Source of the DNA: Chloroflexota bacterium
GTDB lineage: Bacteria; Chloroflexota; Anaerolineae; J036; Brachytrichaceae
Assembly (NCBI GenBank): GCA_018969115.1
Contig: JAGWYZ010000009.1
Location: 1 to 36,388 of the forward strand
Reading direction: 5' to 3'
DNA length: 36,388 nucleotides
Below, piece by piece: positions 7,171 to 34,475 of this stretch. Made by a program: the position numbers and the translations under genes. Below the pieces are notes generated by a model. The model ran no database searches. It was not told the origin of the DNA and saw nothing but the letters and a program-made list of their open reading frames with translations. Numbering within the stretch: position 1 is the first letter of the stretch; every line of letters starts with the position of its first letter.

Positions 7171-8664
7171 TTAGCTGGTTGCGTGTTTGGCTTCGCGCCA
7201 TAATGCGTCTATTTGCTCACTTTTCATTTTCTTCATATCGAGTTGGCGGGTGATGACGTTCTGCTCTAACACACGATAACGTCGCTCAAATTTAAGGCAA
7301 GCTTCACGCAAGGCACTTTCGGCATCGACCCCATAGCCATCAACCAGCACACATGTCGCAAAAATTAAATCACCCAATTCTTCAGCCCGATGTGTCTCGT
7401 TTTCAGCGCTCAAGACCTCATCCAATTCTTCGCGCACTTTGGCGGCGCGTTGGGCTACGCCAACGCTGTCGCTATCCCAATCAAAACCCTGTTTCACCAC
7501 CCGATGCACCATTTTTTGCGCCCGCGCCAAAGCTGGCAGGTCGCGCACAATGCCATCGAGGGTCGATTTACGTTTGTCTTTGGCTTTGGCGGCATTTTCT
7601 TGTTGCTTAATTTTTTCCCAATTCACGCTCACTTCGCCCGCGGTATTGGCTTGCACATCGCCAAACACATGCGGGTGGCGGCGCTTGAGCTTGGCATCGA
7701 TGCTGGCGATCATATCGCTGCTGCGAAAATAATCTTCTTCGGTGGCGATTTGGGCTTGTAAAATCACATTCAGCAACAAATCGCCCAACTCTTCTTTCAA
7801 GTCATCCATGTCATCGCGGTCAATCGCATCCAATACTTCATAGGCTTCTTCACGCAAGGTGGTGCGCAGGCTTTGATGGGTTTGTTCGCGGTCCCACGGG
7901 CAACCTTCGGGCGCACGCAAATGGGCGATGGTTTCTTGCAGCGCCTCAAAACTGCCGATGTGCGGCAACGCCATCACATATAGCGAGGTAAGATGATCAA
8001 AATAATCGCCATGATCCAGCGCATACAAATTCACCCGCCGCGCTGTTTTATCGCCCACAATTACCAATTCATGTTCGGGTGGGTATTGATTCATTAATGT
8101 CAATTTCACATCCGAGGCGACAGCGCGTGAGTAAATTTGGGCGATCAAGGCCGGGCGGTCGGGGTTAATGGGCGGGTGATGTTTCGCCGCCAGCTCAAGC
8201 GCATCGCACAATTGCAGCCCGTTGATGGGGTCGAGCGCCAACAATTGCTGGCTGCTGGTTGAGGCCGCTAGCGCAATGGATTCGAGTGATGGCTCGATAA
8301 AGCTCAGGCCGCTGACAATGCGCACTGCGATGCCAAGCTGTTGGGCTTGCGCCAAAATGGCTGGTGCGGTCGATTCGCCCACCAATGGGTGACCCGGCAC
8401 AGCATAAATGACATCGCCCTGTTGGGCCTTGGTCACAATTGTTGCGGTGATGTGGGCGTAGACCGCTGTAAAATTGTCGGCGCTGTCATAAAGTGCGTCA
8501 AAGTCATGCAACATTAAATTGGGTGGCAAGTCTTGCACAGTTGGGTGTTTGCGTGTGCGCAAATATACCGCTTGTTGTGTTTGTTGCGCTGTGGTCAATA
8601 CATCCCACGCCTCACGCGTGAGCAGGTTGGCATTGCTGGGGCCGAGGCCGAGAAGGGTTAACAT
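7171..8664 (-). CDS. Tetrapyrrole methylase-domain / MazG nucleotide pyrophosphohydrolase fusion (YabN-like)
   Basis: 497 aa; N-term LTLLGLGPSNANLLTREA, AVPGHPLVGEST (SAM methylase-like); C-term PEGCPWDREQTHQSLRTTLREEAYEVLDAID, EELGDLLLNV (MazG). Confidence 0.9.
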   Translation of the reverse strand: MLTLLGLGPSNANLLTREAWDVLTTAQQTQQAVYLRTRKHPTVQDLPPNLMLHDFDALYDSADNFTAVYAHITATIVTKAQQGDVIYAVPGHPLVGESTAPAILAQAQQLGIAVRIVSGLSFIEPSLESIALAASTSSQQLLALDPINGLQLCDALELAAKHHPPINPDRPALIAQIYSRAVASDVKLTLMNQYPPEHELVIVGDKTARRVNLYALDHGDYFDHLTSLYVMALPHIGSFEALQETIAHLRAPEGCPWDREQTHQSLRTTLREEAYEVLDAIDRDDMDDLKEELGDLLLNVILQAQIATEEDYFRSSDMIASIDAKLKRRHPHVFGDVQANTAGEVSVNWEKIKQQENAAKAKDKRKSTLDGIVRDLPALARAQKMVHRVVKQGFDWDSDSVGVAQRAAKVREELDEVLSAENETHRAEELGDLIFATCVLVDGYGVDAESALREACLKFERRYRVLEQNVITRQLDMKKMKSEQIDALWREAKHATS

Positions 8665-8670
8665 AACAGT

Positions 8671-8788
8671 TGAGGGTTAAGAGTTAGGAGTTAAGAGTTG
8701 ATAGCGGATAGCGGATAGTTAAAGCATCACACTATACACAACTTAGCACTTAGCACTTTCCACTTTTTACTTTCTACTTTCCACTTTC
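8671..8788. repeat. Palindromic microrepeat array H4 (GAGTTAA/GATAGCG and ACTTAGC/ACTTTCC units)
   Basis: GAGTTAGGAGTTAAGAGTTGATAGCGGATAGCGGATAG ... ACTTAGCACTTAGCACTTTCCACTTTTTACTTTCTACTTTCCACTTTC, heptad period. Confidence 0.75.
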
Positions 8789-10650
8789 ACCGTGCCAATT
8801 TGCACGGCGTTGTTTGCGGCGGGCTGACCATTGAGCATGGCTGACAGCCGCGTATTTTGGGTGGCGGGGTCATAAACGCCCAACACGACGCGATACTCAC
8901 CGGCGGGTAAATCGGCAGGCACGACGACGGCGTATGGGTCTCGTAACGGCTGATCCGTGGGCCAAGCCGACATTGGCATCAGTTCGCTGAGCGTGAGTTT
9001 ATCGCGCTGAAAAACCAATTTGCCAGTGGCATCGATGACATGAATGAATACTTTGTAATTGGCGATGGGGCGAAGTGGCTGCCAACGCAACACCACATAA
9101 AACCAATCGCCAGCGATAGCCGAAGGGCGTAACCAAACCCCATTCAACGCCAGCGCCTCGCCAAATTGGGCGGTGATGGGGCTGAAAGTGATTGGGCGCA
9201 GCGGCGATTGCACCTGAAAGAGCGGTAGCCGAATTTGACGATAGTTTAATTCGCCAATTTGAAAGCCATTGGCCCATAATGTGCTTTCGAGCAAGCGTTG
9301 CGGGTCAACGACATCATCTTGCCACAGCATTAGCCGCACCCGTTTGGCAGTTTGGGTATTAATTTCATTCACAATTTGGGTTTCGTTTGTCAGGGTGCCG
9401 TGTAAGCCTTTGGGGGCAGCCAAAATTTTAGCGCCTTTTAACCCATAATAATGAGCAGCAAAATTGTCGCGTTGCATTACAACGACATCATCCGGCGTCA
9501 ATGCCTCAGTGATGTGTTGCACCGCTGCACGGGTGTCATCACGGGCGATGTTTGGGTCGGTGTAATTGGCGATGACATTGGGTAGCCACATTGCCAGCAA
9601 GGCGAATGGGGCCAATAAGCTGAGGCGTGGTCGCACCGCCGCGAACAATAGACATAAGGCGGGCGCAGCATAAATAAGATAGCGTGCATGAAAAACCGAT
9701 TTGTATGGATAAACCACTCGGACTGCAATCGTGGCCGATAGTAGCGGCAGTATCGCAATTGCCAGCACAAACATCAAGGCCCGCCAACGCCGCAGCCATG
9801 CCAAAGCCAATATTTGTAATGCCAATGCCAATCCTAATAATAATTGCCATTGCGCCACTGATGGGGCATTAAACCCACCGCTGATAAACGCTCGTGCCCA
9901 TTCCATCAACCGCCCATCGATGGTGTTGAGCGGAAAAACGAAACCATCGCTATAAGCAAACCCACGCGCCGCATAGATCAACCAAGGGATGACGGTTGCC
10001 ATGATGCCAACTACCGCAAGTGTATAGGGCAGCACATAACGTTTTATTTGGTGGGTAGATACCGCCCAGCCCAACACGATGCACCCATGCGCGGGCAACA
10101 GAAAAATAGCGTAATAGTGGCTGTGAATGGCGGCGGCTAAACATAAGGCTGATGCAATCAACCAAGGCGTGCGAGTGGGCCGGGATGGCTCGACCCAGCG
10201 CCATAAGGCGTATGACGAGGTCATACAAAATGTGCCAACGAGCGCATACATGCGGGTTTCTTGGGCAAACCAAATCGCCATTGGGCTAACAGCCCACAAT
10301 AACGCCGGTATGCTATATGCCCATCTCGGCCCCAATTTGCCACGCATGAGGCCGCGCCCAAATGCCAACAATAGTGCCACTGTGGCCACATCGGCGAATA
10401 CCGACAAATACCGCATGGCAAGTTCAGATTGTCCTACTAAACCAATCCAGACATGCAATAACCCATAATAAAGCACTGGGCTGCGATCTCCAGCAGTCAC
10501 CTCAATCATTTCGGCCAGTGGCATCATGGCTAAATGCCACGACCAGCCTTCATCAAACCATAAACTTTGGCTGCCAAGCCGAAACACACGCAAAATAAAA
10601 GCTAATAGAATTAAAAATTTAGAATTAAAAATTAAGAATTGATCCTCCAT
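8767..10650 (-). CDS. Integral membrane glycosyltransferase-like protein (GT39/ArnT/PMT-like)
   Basis: Multi-TM; FRLGSQSLWFDEGWSWHLA near the N-terminus. The ORF-track start at 10779 overlaps radC by ~98 bp; a more plausible start is ATG at 10650 (MEDQFLIFNSKFLILLAFILRVFRL). Confidence 0.75.
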   Translation of the reverse strand: MEDQFLIFNSKFLILLAFILRVFRLGSQSLWFDEGWSWHLAMMPLAEMIEVTAGDRSPVLYYGLLHVWIGLVGQSELAMRYLSVFADVATVALLLAFGRGLMRGKLGPRWAYSIPALLWAVSPMAIWFAQETRMYALVGTFCMTSSYALWRWVEPSRPTRTPWLIASALCLAAAIHSHYYAIFLLPAHGCIVLGWAVSTHQIKRYVLPYTLAVVGIMATVIPWLIYAARGFAYSDGFVFPLNTIDGRLMEWARAFISGGFNAPSVAQWQLLLGLALALQILALAWLRRWRALMFVLAIAILPLLSATIAVRVVYPYKSVFHARYLIYAAPALCLLFAAVRPRLSLLAPFALLAMWLPNVIANYTDPNIARDDTRAAVQHITEALTPDDVVVMQRDNFAAHYYGLKGAKILAAPKGLHGTLTNETQIVNEINTQTAKRVRLMLWQDDVVDPQRLLESTLWANGFQIGELNYRQIRLPLFQVQSPLRPITFSPITAQFGEALALNGVWLRPSAIAGDWFYVVLRWQPLRPIANYKVFIHVIDATGKLVFQRDKLTLSELMPMSAWPTDQPLRDPYAVVVPADLPAGEYRVVLGVYDPATQNTRLSAMLNGQPAANNAVQIGTVKVESRK

Positions 10651-10680
10651 TTTTAAATTTTCATTTTTAAAATTCCATTT
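10604..10680. repeat. AT-rich palindromic microrepeat array H5
   Basis: AATAGAATTAAAAATTTAGAATTAAAAATTAAGAATT ... TTTTTAAATTTTCATTTTTAAAATTCC. Confidence 0.65.
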
Positions 10681-10681
10681 T

Positions 10682-11407
10682 TTAGTCAAAGGCCACCCCA
10701 CGTTCTTTAAGGCTAACATAACGATTATGCGCAATGATAATGTGGTCGAGCACTTCGATTTCGAGCAATTTGCCGGCATCGACGAGCAAACGGGTCACTT
10801 TAATGTCTTCGGCGCTGGGGGTGGGGTCGCCCGATGGGTGATTGTGGGCAAAAACAATCGTAGCCGCATTAGAGCGAATGGCCTCTTTAAAGACCTCGCC
10901 AGTGCGAATGCTCGCGCTATTTAAGCTGCCGCGATAGATCATGGGGACGCCAATAACGCCATTGCGGGTATCGAGTAACATGGTGCGTACTTCTTCTTGC
11001 TCAAGCATACTCATTTCCAACATCAACATTTGGGCGGCATCGCTTGGGGTTTTAATGACATTACGCTCGTTGCGGGTGCTCATGGCCAATCGTTTGCCCA
11101 ATTCAAGTGCGGTTTTAATTTCAATCGCTTTTACCGGCCCAATGCCATGCACCCGTTGTAAATCGCGCAAATCTGCGCGTGCTAAGCCAGCCAATCCCCC
11201 AAATTCTCTGAGTACAGCATCGGCTAAAGGCAACACGCCTAACCCAGTAGGGCCAGTGCGTAAAATAATCGCCAGCAATTCGCGTTGCGACATGCCTGAT
11301 GCGCCAATCTCCATAAATCGCTCACGAGGGCGTTCACCCTCCGGTATATCACTGATCAATAAACGATACTCTGTACGCCTGATCATATTCTCATTGTCTT
11401 CACCCAT
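10682..11407 (-). CDS. radC: DNA repair protein RadC (JAB/MPN family)
   Basis: 241 aa; GIGPVKAIEIKTALELGKR (HhH), VFAHNHPSGDPTPSAEDIKVTRLL (JAMM motif). Confidence 0.95.
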   Translation of the reverse strand: MGEDNENMIRRTEYRLLISDIPEGERPRERFMEIGASGMSQRELLAIILRTGPTGLGVLPLADAVLREFGGLAGLARADLRDLQRVHGIGPVKAIEIKTALELGKRLAMSTRNERNVIKTPSDAAQMLMLEMSMLEQEEVRTMLLDTRNGVIGVPMIYRGSLNSASIRTGEVFKEAIRSNAATIVFAHNHPSGDPTPSAEDIKVTRLLVDAGKLLEIEVLDHIIIAHNRYVSLKERGVAFD

Positions 11408-12490: not shown

Positions 12491-12541
12491 CGATTTCACT
12501 ATACCCTGCCACACTATGCTTGGCAAGGCATAGTGAAATCG
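12491..12541 (+). repeat. Long hairpin element B (shorter, 21-nt arms with 2 mismatches)
   Basis: CGATTTCACTATACCCTGCCA - CACTATGCT - TGGCAAGGCATAGTGAAATCG, followed by GCGAAA like other copies. Confidence 0.85.
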
Positions 12542-12575
12542 GCGAAACCTTTTTTATCACTTATAAAAAAACGCT

Positions 12576-16553: not shown

Positions 16554-16568
16554 GTAGAGATGTAAAAA

Positions 16569-16655
16569 CCAAGACCCAAGACCCAAGACCCAAAATCTTG
16601 GCTCTTGGGTCTTGATTCTTGATTCTTGATTCTTGATTCTTTGTTCTTTGTTCTT
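16569..16655. repeat. Palindromic heptad array H3 (AAGACCC / GATTCTT / TTGTTCT units)
   Basis: AAGACCCAAGACCCAAGACCCAAAATCTTGGCTCTTGGGTCTTGATTCTTGATTCTTGATTCTTGATTCTTTGTTCTTTGTTCTT. Confidence 0.85.
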
Positions 16656-18128
16656 ATGAAAGGTCTGATTAAATCTATCGAACCCGCTAGCGCCGCAGAA
16701 AAAGCCGGTTTGTTACCCTTGGATGCCGTCACTGCGATTAATGGGCGGGGGCTGCGCGATGTTATCGACGCTCAGTTTTATAGCGCCGAAACTGATTTGA
16801 CGTTTGCGATAGAGCGGGCTGGTCAATCGATGGCGTTGCATACGCGGCGCGAATTTGGACAAGCACTGGGGATCGAATTTGAACATCCGACCTTTGATAT
16901 TGACATTCGGCGCTGCAATAATCTGTGCCCCTTTTGTTTTGTACTACAAAATGCGCCCAAAATGCGGCGCACGCTGTATATCAAAGACGACGATTATCGA
17001 TATTCATTTTTGTTTGGGCATTATGTGACCCTAACAAACTTGAACGAAGAAGATTGGGTGCGGCTGGCCGAGCAGCGCCTCAGCCCGTTGTATGTGTCGG
17101 TGCATTGCACCGATGTTGAAGTACGGCGCAAATGTTTGCGGAATGCTAATGCCCCCGATGTATTGCAGCAATTGCGCTGGTTGGCCGATCATGGGATTGA
17201 AACTCATACCCAATTGGTGATTACGCCGGGGTTGAATGATGGTGCGTGGGTTGAACGCAGTGTGCGTGAATTGGCAGCTTTGCACCCATATGTGCTCACG
17301 GCGACAGTCGTGCCGGTGGGTTTGTCGAAACATCATAAATATGGCCATCGCCCTCATAATGCAGCCGAATGTGCCGCCATGCTTGACCAAGTGCAAAATT
17401 GGCAGGCTGAATTTCAGCGCACATTGGGCACACGCTTTGTATGGGCCACGGATGAATGGTATTTGGTTGGTAAGCGCCCATTACCCAACAAAAGCCATTA
17501 TGAAAAACACAAGCTGTTTGAAAATGGGTTGGGCATGGTACGGGCGTTTTTAGATGAATGGCGCAAGGTCAAAAATTTAGAATTGAAAATGAAAAATGAA
17601 GAATTGGGATTAGGTCATTCTCACTTTTTAGCAAAAAATGTACAATTTCAAGCCGCCACACTGATTACTGCGCCATTATTTGCACCGGTCTTGCAAAAAA
17701 CAGCCAAAGAATTTAGCAAATTAACAGGTATTCCATTGCGCGTAATCACTGTCATCAACCAACGTCTTGGTGAAAGCATGACAGTTTCGGGTTTGATGAT
17801 GGGGCAAGATGTGATTGATCAATGGAAAAGCGAAGATGAAAAACTAAAACTGGAAAACCCAGAACAGTTTTTAATATTTAATTCGTCGTCTTCTATTGTT
17901 GTCATGCCGCGCATTATGTTTGATCATCCAGATGGTATCGCCCTTGATGATATTACGCCGATGCAGGTGGCCCAAGCCTTGGGGCAGCCAGTGGCGTTGG
18001 CCGATTGGATGGGCGATGTGGTGGATGCTTTATGCGGAAGGAATAAGCTTACATTTAACCCAACCGCCCCAGACCTAAGTGTGCCAGTGGTTCGTGAGGG
18101 TGGCTGGGCGGTGGAAAAATATTTGTAG
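16656..18128 (+). CDS. DUF512 domain protein with N-terminal PDZ-like domain (radical SAM/FeS oxidoreductase-like)
   Basis: ATG at 16656 (MKGLIKSIEPASAAEKAGLLPLDAVTAING...); CNNLCPFCFVLQNAPKMRRTLYIKDDDYRYSFLFGHYVTLTNL, VVPVGLSKHH. ORF-track start 16626 is inside array H3. Confidence 0.88.
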   Translation: MKGLIKSIEPASAAEKAGLLPLDAVTAINGRGLRDVIDAQFYSAETDLTFAIERAGQSMALHTRREFGQALGIEFEHPTFDIDIRRCNNLCPFCFVLQNAPKMRRTLYIKDDDYRYSFLFGHYVTLTNLNEEDWVRLAEQRLSPLYVSVHCTDVEVRRKCLRNANAPDVLQQLRWLADHGIETHTQLVITPGLNDGAWVERSVRELAALHPYVLTATVVPVGLSKHHKYGHRPHNAAECAAMLDQVQNWQAEFQRTLGTRFVWATDEWYLVGKRPLPNKSHYEKHKLFENGLGMVRAFLDEWRKVKNLELKMKNEELGLGHSHFLAKNVQFQAATLITAPLFAPVLQKTAKEFSKLTGIPLRVITVINQRLGESMTVSGLMMGQDVIDQWKSEDEKLKLENPEQFLIFNSSSSIVVMPRIMFDHPDGIALDDITPMQVAQALGQPVALADWMGDVVDALCGRNKLTFNPTAPDLSVPVVREGGWAVEKYL

Positions 18129-19531: not shown

Positions 19532-19593
19532 AAATCTAAAATTTAGAATTGAAAATTTAAAATTGGATTGGACTTCTCAATTTTAAATTTTCA
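19532..19593. repeat. AT-rich palindromic microrepeat array H6
   Basis: AAATCTAAAATTTAGAATTGAAAATTTAAAATTGG ... CTCAATTTTAAATTTTCAC between convergent genes. Confidence 0.7.
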
Positions 19594-20245
19594 CTTCGTC
19601 GCTGCGTTTGTGATATTTGGCGGTAGGGGGCGCGGCATAGACACCACTGGCTTCGGTGTTTTTGCTAATCCAAGCTTGTGCGCCAATTACACATTCGTCA
19701 GCAATGACAATGCCATCACGTACGGTGGCGTTCATGCCAAAAAAGCAACGCTGCCCTACTTTGGCGTTGCCGCCAATTACGACGTGTGATGAAATGAAGC
19801 AGTGGTCGCCAATGTTTACATCATGTCCAATCAAATTGCCACTCCACACCCATACATTGTTGCCTAAACAGGCGTGGGCTTGCAAAACGCTCATTTCACC
19901 CACAAAGCTATTTTCACCGATGGTGCTGCCCGGAAAAACCGAGGCACGCGAGCAGATATAACTGACCAAGGTATAACCCTTGGCTTTGGCGGCCTCATAT
20001 TTGGCTTGGCGGGTGCGGCAAATATTTTGGTAGCCCAACGCCACAAACAATCCAACCTCACTTGGCGCAAAATGTTGCTCGATCTCTTCAAAGGCAATGA
20101 CAGGTAGCCCACGCATCATTGGCTCTTTAATGTAAGCGCGGTCAACCGTAAATGCCATCACCTCGTAATCTGAATCGTGAGTGAAATAGGTGCAGGCGGC
20201 GCGAGCAATTTCGCTGCCACCAAAGATGATAATAGGCTTTTTCAT
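19583..20245 (-). CDS. NeuD-like sugar O-acyltransferase (left-handed beta-helix)
   Basis: 220 aa; PIIIFGGSEIARAACTYF, hexapeptide repeats IGENSFVGEMSVLQAHACLGNNVWVWSGNLIGHDVNIGDHCFISSHVVIGG. Confidence 0.85.
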   Translation of the reverse strand: MKKPIIIFGGSEIARAACTYFTHDSDYEVMAFTVDRAYIKEPMMRGLPVIAFEEIEQHFAPSEVGLFVALGYQNICRTRQAKYEAAKAKGYTLVSYICSRASVFPGSTIGENSFVGEMSVLQAHACLGNNVWVWSGNLIGHDVNIGDHCFISSHVVIGGNAKVGQRCFFGMNATVRDGIVIADECVIGAQAWISKNTEASGVYAAPPTAKYHKRSDEVKI

Positions 20246-25772: not shown

Positions 25773-25835
25773 ATAATTATGAATTATCAATTGGAAGCTG
25801 TTGCCTTCAATTCGTAATTCGTAATTCGTAATTCA
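25773..25835. repeat. Palindromic heptad array H8 (AATTCGT unit)
   Basis: ATAATTATGAATTATCAATTGGAAGC ... GCCTTCAATTCGTAATTCGTAATTCGTAATTC. Confidence 0.75.
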
Positions 25836-25838
25836 AAA

Positions 25839-26333
25839 ATGCCACGTTCTTTAGCGATTGATGTCGGTAACCGGCGAATTGGGGTGGCGGTTAGCGACGA
25901 AGGTAAGTTGATTGCCCGACCTCTTGAAGTCATTGACCGAAAAACGCAGAACCCAATTAAACATATTACCGCCCATATTGCGAATCTTAAGCCCGATGAG
26001 CTTATTGTAGGGTATCCGTATCAAAAAGATGGCAATATTAGCGAGCAGGCGGCCCTAGTAGAAGCGTTTGTTGCGCTTTTGCGTCCGCATATCAGCATCC
26101 CTCTGGTTTATCAAGATGAGCGATTTAGCACAGGCGAGGCGCAAACTGTGATTAAATTAAACACACGCAAAAGTAAAACCTTGGCACAGCGTGCAAAGCC
26201 AGCCGCGCCTGATGATGCGGTTGCGGCAGCCGTTATTTTGCAGCGTTATTTAGATAGCATACAATTTAAACAAACACAAGAAAACGAATCTGACTTTGAA
26301 GATTTTTTCTCGGAGGGTTTTAAAAATGAATGA
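25839..26333 (+). CDS. ruvX: Holliday junction resolvase RuvX/YqgF
   Basis: 164 aa; LAIDVGNRRIGVAVSDE, VYQDERFSTGEAQ, PDDAVAAAVILQRYLD. Confidence 0.93.
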   Translation: MPRSLAIDVGNRRIGVAVSDEGKLIARPLEVIDRKTQNPIKHITAHIANLKPDELIVGYPYQKDGNISEQAALVEAFVALLRPHISIPLVYQDERFSTGEAQTVIKLNTRKSKTLAQRAKPAAPDDAVAAAVILQRYLDSIQFKQTQENESDFEDFFSEGFKNE

Positions 26334-27815: not shown

Positions 27816-27853
27816 ATGGTTTAAAAAAATCGGGGGAAATAAAACTATTTTTT

Positions 27854-27926
27854 GCCAAACGCACCATATGAACATTGAAGTTAGGGGCAAAGCTCCTAAC
27901 TTCAATGTTTATATGGTGCGTTTGGC
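27854..27926 (-). repeat. Long hairpin element C (35-bp stem, one or two G-T wobbles, AAA loop; inverted orientation)
   Basis: GCCAAACGCACCATATGAACATTGAAGTTAGGGGC-AAA-GCTCCTAACTTCAATGTTTATATGGTGCGTTTGGC. Confidence 0.93.
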
Positions 27927-28092
27927 ATTACATCTTTGGGTTCTACCCCGAACTCTTGAGATGATACGTGTGGTCTTTCAAAATTGCAACTGTGATTTTG
28001 AGAATGCCCTAAAATATCGCTCTGTTTTATCACAATCTATACGTGAATTACGCAATACTAGAAACATCAAATCATCATTTTGCGTAACACCT

Positions 28093-30037: not shown

Positions 30038-30114
30038 GGTTAGTTGATTGGTTGATTCATGACTTACAAGTCACAAGTCAACCAATCAACCAATCAACCA
30101 ATCAACCAACTAAC
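30038..30114. repeat. Palindromic microrepeat array H2 (AACCAATC unit), sister of H1
   Basis: GGTTAGTTGATTGGTTGATT ... CAACCAATCAACCAATCAACCAATCAACCAACTAACC; loop contains ACTTACAAGT as in H1. Confidence 0.85.
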
Positions 30115-30148
30115 CGTAATTCCCTACGTAAGTATTTACAATTGGTTT

Positions 30149-33920: not shown

Positions 33921-33989
33921 CGAACTCACAGTATGACCATTGAAGGCATGGGCAAAACCCATGCCTTCAATGGTCATACTGTGAGTTCG
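33921..33989 (+). repeat. Long hairpin element D (32-bp perfect stem, CAAAA loop)
   Basis: CGAACTCACAGTATGACCATTGAAGGCATGGG-CAAAA-CCCATGCCTTCAATGGTCATACTGTGAGTTCG, followed by GCGAAAA. Confidence 0.95.
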
Positions 33990-34403: not shown

Positions 34404-34458
34404 CGATTTTACTATCTCTTCTCTGCAAGCTTATGTTTGCAGAGAGATAGTGAAATCG
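34404..34458 (+). repeat. Long hairpin element E (imperfect, 3-nt bulge)
   Basis: CGATTTTACTATCTCTTCTCTGCAAGC-TTAT-GTTTGCAGAGAGATAGTGAAATCG; flanks AAATGC and ACGAAAA match other copies. Confidence 0.87.
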
Positions 34459-34475
34459 ACGAAAATCGCATTTTT

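Follow-up and report, generated by a model that had tools for sequence, protein, structure and literature searches.

The gene of a radical SAM and DUF512 protein in this Anaerolineae genome raises the question of whether repeat DNA has been taken into a conserved protein. The sequence-only reading had described two in-frame palindromic-repeat insertions in it and had drawn a parallel with Rickettsia palindromic elements (RPEs). The window, meaning the whole stretch of 36,388 nucleotides that was analysed, belongs to genome G000; G001 is its nearest relative, and G000, G001, G002 and G003 form one genus. Named relatives in the host family (Anaerolineae, Chloroflexota) include Candidatus Roseilinea and Thermoflexales bins. 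The sequences quoted for the two insertions were found at the correct coordinates, and the reading frame of the ORF is kept across them. The features of the gene are as follows.

16656..18128, plus strand: gene of the radical SAM and DUF512 protein (Pfam/NCBIfam).
17569..17611, plus strand: segment 1, degenerate heptamer array and left arm of an insert (lag-7 statistic; family D1 with arrays H5 and H6; homologue alignment).
17613..17652, plus strand: possible right arm of the segment 1 insert, in decayed form (alignment with loci L003 and L018, the right arms of which are intact arrays).
17824..17885, plus strand: segment 2, loop/helix extension, KLKLENPEQFLIFNS (homologue alignment, fold, lag-7, peptide search, structure model).

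The 490-residue product displays a PDZ-like N-terminus, PF19238 and PF04459 in Pfam/NCBIfam, and is TIGR03279-like with a score under the TIGR03279 cut-off. The CxxxCxxC region and the DUF512 domain expected of DUF512 radical SAM proteins are both present, residues C87, C91 and C94 being invariant, and the nearest solved structures are the DUF512 proteins 9cg1 and 9cg2. Divergence from the nearest homologue, in G001, amounts to 0.175, 0.096 and 0.48 at codon positions 1, 2 and 3, respectively, which indicates that the gene is under purifying selection.

Segment 1 consists of the units AATTTAG, AATTGAA, AATGAAA, AATGAAG and AATTGGG and covers about residues 305–319. Its similarity to two other arrays of the window, as claimed in the sequence-only reading, was confirmed by a 33-base family (D1) with 82–85% DNA match, located at 10609-10641 (in H5), 17574-17606 (82%, in segment 1) and 19533-19565 (85%, in H6). 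The two arrays are:

10597..10683, minus strand: array H5, dyad heptamer array (D1 family; G003 orthologue).
19533..19600, no strand assigned: array H6, heptamers in dyad arrangement, in the spacer of a convergent gene pair (D1, I10; DNA fold).

The lag-7 match fraction of segment 1 is 0.67, a value attained in 0.05% of equal-length coding windows of G000, and its AT content is attained in 0.08% of them. Segment 1 falls outside the strict array criterion (18/21). It is nonetheless a genuine though degenerate period-7 array. An ordinary ancestral AT-rich Lys/Glu helix with its linker, array-like by composition alone, would be a competing explanation, and could account for the fact that 2.5% of AT-matched coding windows (n=79) equal the lag-7 value and that the fold of segment 1 shows no excess stability over shuffled sequences (z +0.35). 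It would also fit KNLELK, with which segment 1 begins; these residues are common to G001 before that sequence diverges and align with the ancestral K-[RN]-x-E-[LIV] motif of the family. Since K-[RN]-x-E-L is ancestral, the insert proper begins inside segment 1 and part of the peptide does not belong to it. The D1 match to two arrays of the same window speaks against this explanation, as do the homologous linkers described below, and we consider it improbable.

According to the homologue alignment, segment 1 lies at the end of a helix and in the linker that follows. This linker is variable between lineages. It counts 38 residues here and 26–32 in most array-free homologues, many of which are shorter by 9–12 residues, a difference that the ancestral explanation leaves unaccounted for. 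The linker tail was modelled with poor confidence (pLDDT 62–67), in line with the surface loop that had been anticipated. A search with the peptide of segment 1 returned its own locus as the sole significant match; matches at E >= 0.1 included in-frame ORFs in G000 and G001. The peptide of the stretch 17613..17652, LGHSHFLAKNVQF, has its counterpart in HSQFSILNSQF of G020. Judged by the alignment to G020 and G023, this stretch would represent the decayed right arm of the segment 1 insert; its folding is non-significant. For segment 1 the initial reading was right in essence.

Unmistakable arrays were observed in the same linker of G015, G010, G020 and G023, which again argues against a purely compositional resemblance. 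The units are not the same in every lineage: G020 has (TCTCAAT)n and G023 has (TCTCAAA)n. The linkers of G015 and G010 contain (CAGAGCA)n, (ACTACGC)n and (ATCCAAA)n; with up to 60 extra residues, they extend to 87 (G015) and 66 (G010) residues. A period-7 run of at least 11/14 was detected in 12 of the 87 homologues with a parsable linker, against 0–3 for the other lags between 4 and 12, so that the enrichment concerns period 7 and not other periods. With the linker left out of the tree, the trait requires 9 changes, at least 7 of them forced by well-supported branches; the number of independent events could be lower if the array was ancestral and its units turned over rapidly. Linkers of genus g6 comprise clean arrays (G020, G023) and the decayed forms LSILNSQF, LPIFNSQF and LPTFDSPF; the direction would be from the clean array to the decayed version. 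In two Nitrospirota homologues this linker is occupied by other, unrelated dispersed repeats, which have 35 and 28 matches in the respective genomes:

L123, 921-1043: Nitrospirota linker repeat, peptide GSFGFAQDDR.
L133, 3883-4050: Nitrospirota linker repeat, peptide LHPPLKIRGGQGG.

On these sequence comparisons, the DUF512 linker is a recurrent landing site for repeats that was hit in different lineages, so that repeats look like a recurring source of protein linkers. The array in it may have arisen by insertion or by in-place expansion, both of which fit the genomes compared.

Segment 2 fared differently. It had been taken for a second lineage-specific array insertion, and this did not hold: the G001 homologue (81% identical) has a counterpart of equal length, NAALQANDPAQFAVF, without an array, and the segment was modelled confidently as helices (pLDDT about 96). 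The equal length in an array-free homologue favours the ancestral explanation for this segment, and it realises in part, for segment 2, what the initial reading had named as its own refutation. Since G001 shares this length, the extension predates the split between G000 and G001. The palindromic character attributed to both coding segments proved weak as well, segment 2 reaching z −1.2 against shuffled sequences, which is not significant. The peptide similarity with H5 was retained in part: QFLIFNS is identical in segment 2 and in H5, while a search of G000 with the H5 peptide ranked segment 2 fourth, with an E value of only 0.09. The N-terminus (MEDQFLIFNSKFLILLAF) of a glycosyltransferase-like ORF is encoded by the right arm of H5, an arrangement that recurs in the orthologue of this ORF in G003. 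Segment 2 is thus best described, from its alignment, as an older extension of uncertain origin, and a recent insertion is ruled against; it may be an old decayed array.

Further arrays of the window are located between genes:

about 16563..16656, no strand assigned: dyad heptamer array (AAGACCC)n / (TCTTGAT)n in the spacer between an acyltransferase-like gene and the DUF512 gene (repeat listing, fold).
25806..25840, no strand assigned: heptamer array (AATTCGT)n between two genes.
8664..8789, no strand assigned: heptamer arrays at a gene junction.

Two intergenic arrays fold strongly as DNA (z −4.5 for H6 and −4.6 for the array at about 16563..16656), and the G001 spacer matching the latter likewise has an array, made of different units. 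Three near-perfect palindromes (2741-2815, 27853-27927 and 33921-33989; arms of 32–36 nt, loops of 3–5 nt) are not heptamer arrays and resemble a hairpin or MITE-like family of their own; related half-sites occur at 12491-12547 and 34416-34465. Arrays of 8-nt units at 2190-2265 and 30040-30115 (TTGGTTGA / TCAACCAA) are mutually inverted, period 8 being the second commonest short period in the genus of G000.

Among tandem periods, 7 alone is strongly enriched in G000, at a density of about 150 arrays per Mb. Strict period-7 arrays number 40 in 234 kb of this genome, compared to 0–5 for each other non-multiple period from 3 to 13. G000 was scanned as sampled stretches, so per-genome totals are extrapolated; some of the sampled G000 and G001 contigs were picked by pattern matches, and an unbiased subset of G000 (C100–C170 and the window) agrees, with 15 arrays in 95.8 kb. 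The density is 120 per Mb in G003, 65 per Mb in G021 (even grid), 15 per Mb in G002 and 0 in G005. Within the genus, G002 thus differs about tenfold from G000, G001 and G003, and has a GC content of 0.56 versus 0.49–0.52. The units vary (AATTGAA, TCTTGGT, ATCCAAA, AGTGGCA, CAGAGCA), and the total size of an array ranges between about 4 units and about 100 nt. TTAANNN arrays form a repeat class of their own in this DNA, which made the reversed pattern useless as a control for AATTNNNAATTNNNAATT. An expansion caused by the loss of SbcCD or MutS was discarded: array-rich genomes have both SbcD and MutS (SbcD of G001 being divided between two contigs), and their presence does not separate array-rich from array-poor genomes.

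Inverted repeats of at least 12 were detected in 78/122 intergenic or edge arrays and in 13/40 in-gene arrays, compared to 15/669 random windows. About a quarter of the arrays (40/162) lie inside ORFs of at least 100 aa. As ORFs make up about 88% of the DNA, genes are strongly avoided by the arrays but not closed to them. A sense-strand stop occurs in the unit of 6/40 in-gene arrays, against 54% of strands elsewhere (p 2e-6), a figure that is partly ascertainment since in-gene arrays were defined via open ORFs. Most non-internal arrays can form hairpins, and 108 of these 122 are within 20 nt of an ORF end. This would suit arrays that are kept for a function in DNA or RNA, as a terminator, an mRNA-stabilising hairpin or a DNA-binding site, those inside genes being tolerated spill-over. 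Nearness to ORF ends is, however, expected from the shortness of intergenic spaces, the arrays occupy junctions of every orientation (convergent, divergent and co-directional), and G002 of the same genus is nearly array-free. Such a function, which would be compatible with the explanation preferred below, is judged rather unlikely.

In-frame arrays were also identified in other proteins, namely TopA (two), Mfd (two), an FAD-oxidase/CCG protein (two), a CNNM/CBS protein (CNNM) and a GT4 glycosyltransferase. Relatives poor in arrays are without such in-gene copies. Those of TopA are confined to G000 and G001; other homologues are mostly without them, G015 and G010 having similar AT-rich linkers. 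Nearly all matches of relatives to Mfd break at the array (residues about 400–441). Two G001 contigs, C180 and C9, end within the Mfd array, and heptamer arrays therefore probably fragment such MAGs. The GT4 linkers of G000 and G001 differ by exactly 7 aa (21 nt), and this difference lies inside the array. The mismatch-repair protein MutS contains two in-frame arrays in G000, G001 and G003 (L322, L323, L324), which are absent from G002 and G005, and MutS of G021 has a different in-frame array. A dyad array was also seen in L327, a G000 ORF region with a MutS2-like match.

STRR repeats of cyanobacteria are dispersed heptamer tandem arrays. Of the properties of this heptanucleotide class, the dominant 7-nt tandem period is evident from the lag spectrum and from the lag-7 value of segment 1. 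Complementary hairpin runs are present in the 78 intergenic or edge arrays mentioned above, segments 1 and 2 being themselves non-significant. As to copy-number change by slippage between strains, the observation is one 21-nt difference in GT4, between G000 and G001. The closest known DNA is that of the degenerate heptanucleotide repeats of cyanobacteria: in the P6b stem of the Nostoc tRNA-Leu(UAA) intron, such repeats are described as forming a hairpin and as differing in copy number between genotypes (PMC3488679, citing Costa et al. 2002). The present arrays share with them the degenerate 7-nt units and the complementary hairpin runs. In contrast to the Nostoc repeats, which are non-coding and belong to one intron, they are dispersed, number in the hundreds and are in many cases translated. 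The TAACTGA repeats of Beggiatoaceae, to which the resemblance is less close, are dispersed heptamer tandems as well, mostly intergenic with some overlapping ORFs. They have one fixed unit and are nearly all direct (a single indirect repeat), and most copies in ORFs belong to hypothetical proteins or to the ends of proteins (PMC4679880). Here, on the contrary, many unit families form dyads internal to conserved housekeeping proteins and recur in one linker. The same paper refers to an earlier survey in which heptamers were the commonest long simple repeats, and for which polymerase slippage was proposed (PMC4679880). For Chloroflexota, our literature search found nothing specific on heptamer arrays.

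The proposed parallel with RPEs stands as far as the in-frame location inside unrelated conserved protein genes is concerned. RPEs are elements of about 150 bp in ten defined families, inserted in frame in such genes and tolerated in the protein (PMC10969869). A mobile palindromic element of RPE or MITE type, transposing in frame into genes, would explain why the present arrays are dispersed, have dyad symmetry and lie in frame in unrelated genes. Neither their sequence, length nor ends are fixed, though, and the units differ: the copies share the 7-bp period alone and not a consensus of about 100–150 bp, and no common ends are visible among the arrays listed. A strong inverted repeat is present in 13 of the 40 in-gene arrays. 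A mobile element of this type is regarded as very improbable, and membership in the RPEs was rejected as the defining consensus element is absent. Inverted repeats inside protein-coding genes are also found in nematomorph mitochondria, with both arms translated (PMC6649704). Those are perfect and long, and the abstract of that study describes no heptamer periodicity. In summary, the kind of DNA is known (heptanucleotide repeats) and its effect on proteins is RPE-like, but the arrays are not RPEs. What sets them apart is that dyad heptamers of many unit families lie inside conserved housekeeping proteins, and repeatedly in one linker.

Segment 1 is thus probably a member of a family-wide set of degenerate heptanucleotide dyad arrays, carried in frame in tolerant linkers, with an origin in slippage or template switching and near-neutral. 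The 7-nt period and the dyad symmetry, with no common sequence or ends, favour slippage or template switching over transposition. In such an array a short run of a 7-base unit is followed by a run of the complementary unit. In the proposed mechanism, the arrays would most likely arise and turn over, free of transposase, by replication slippage or template switching on the hairpin-forming repeats. They are situated mainly at gene junctions, and inside genes they would be kept if the sense strand is stop-free and the net length adds up to a multiple of three, three units (21 nt) adding seven amino acids with the frame intact. Tolerant linkers and loops would gain new arrays or longer ones, and those that break the protein would be purged by purifying selection. 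The DUF512 array would then represent a near-neutral lengthening of the helix and linker that follow the catalytic core.

A broader reading, held tentatively and somewhat short of probable, is that new protein sequence is generated throughout the genome by heptad dyad arrays in this Chloroflexota family. They would repeatedly provide linkers and loops for TopA, Mfd, MutS and the DUF512 protein, with array peptides decaying to ordinary sequence, and the DUF512 linker would be a cross-phylum repeat sink in which fresh to decayed stages are seen. For annotation, peptides such as QFSIFNSQF, KNQEPRTKNQES and IQNPKSKIQNPKS should be taken as read-outs of arrays and not as signs of homology. Repeat DNA here gives amino acid sequence to essential bacterial proteins beyond Rickettsia; by extrapolation from the samples, each genome would have roughly a hundred arrays or more. 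The unit is unusual, as its length of 7 is not a multiple of three and the arrays are still carried in frame. With one linker struck repeatedly in different lineages and both fresh and decayed cases at hand, the origin of new protein linkers becomes directly testable.
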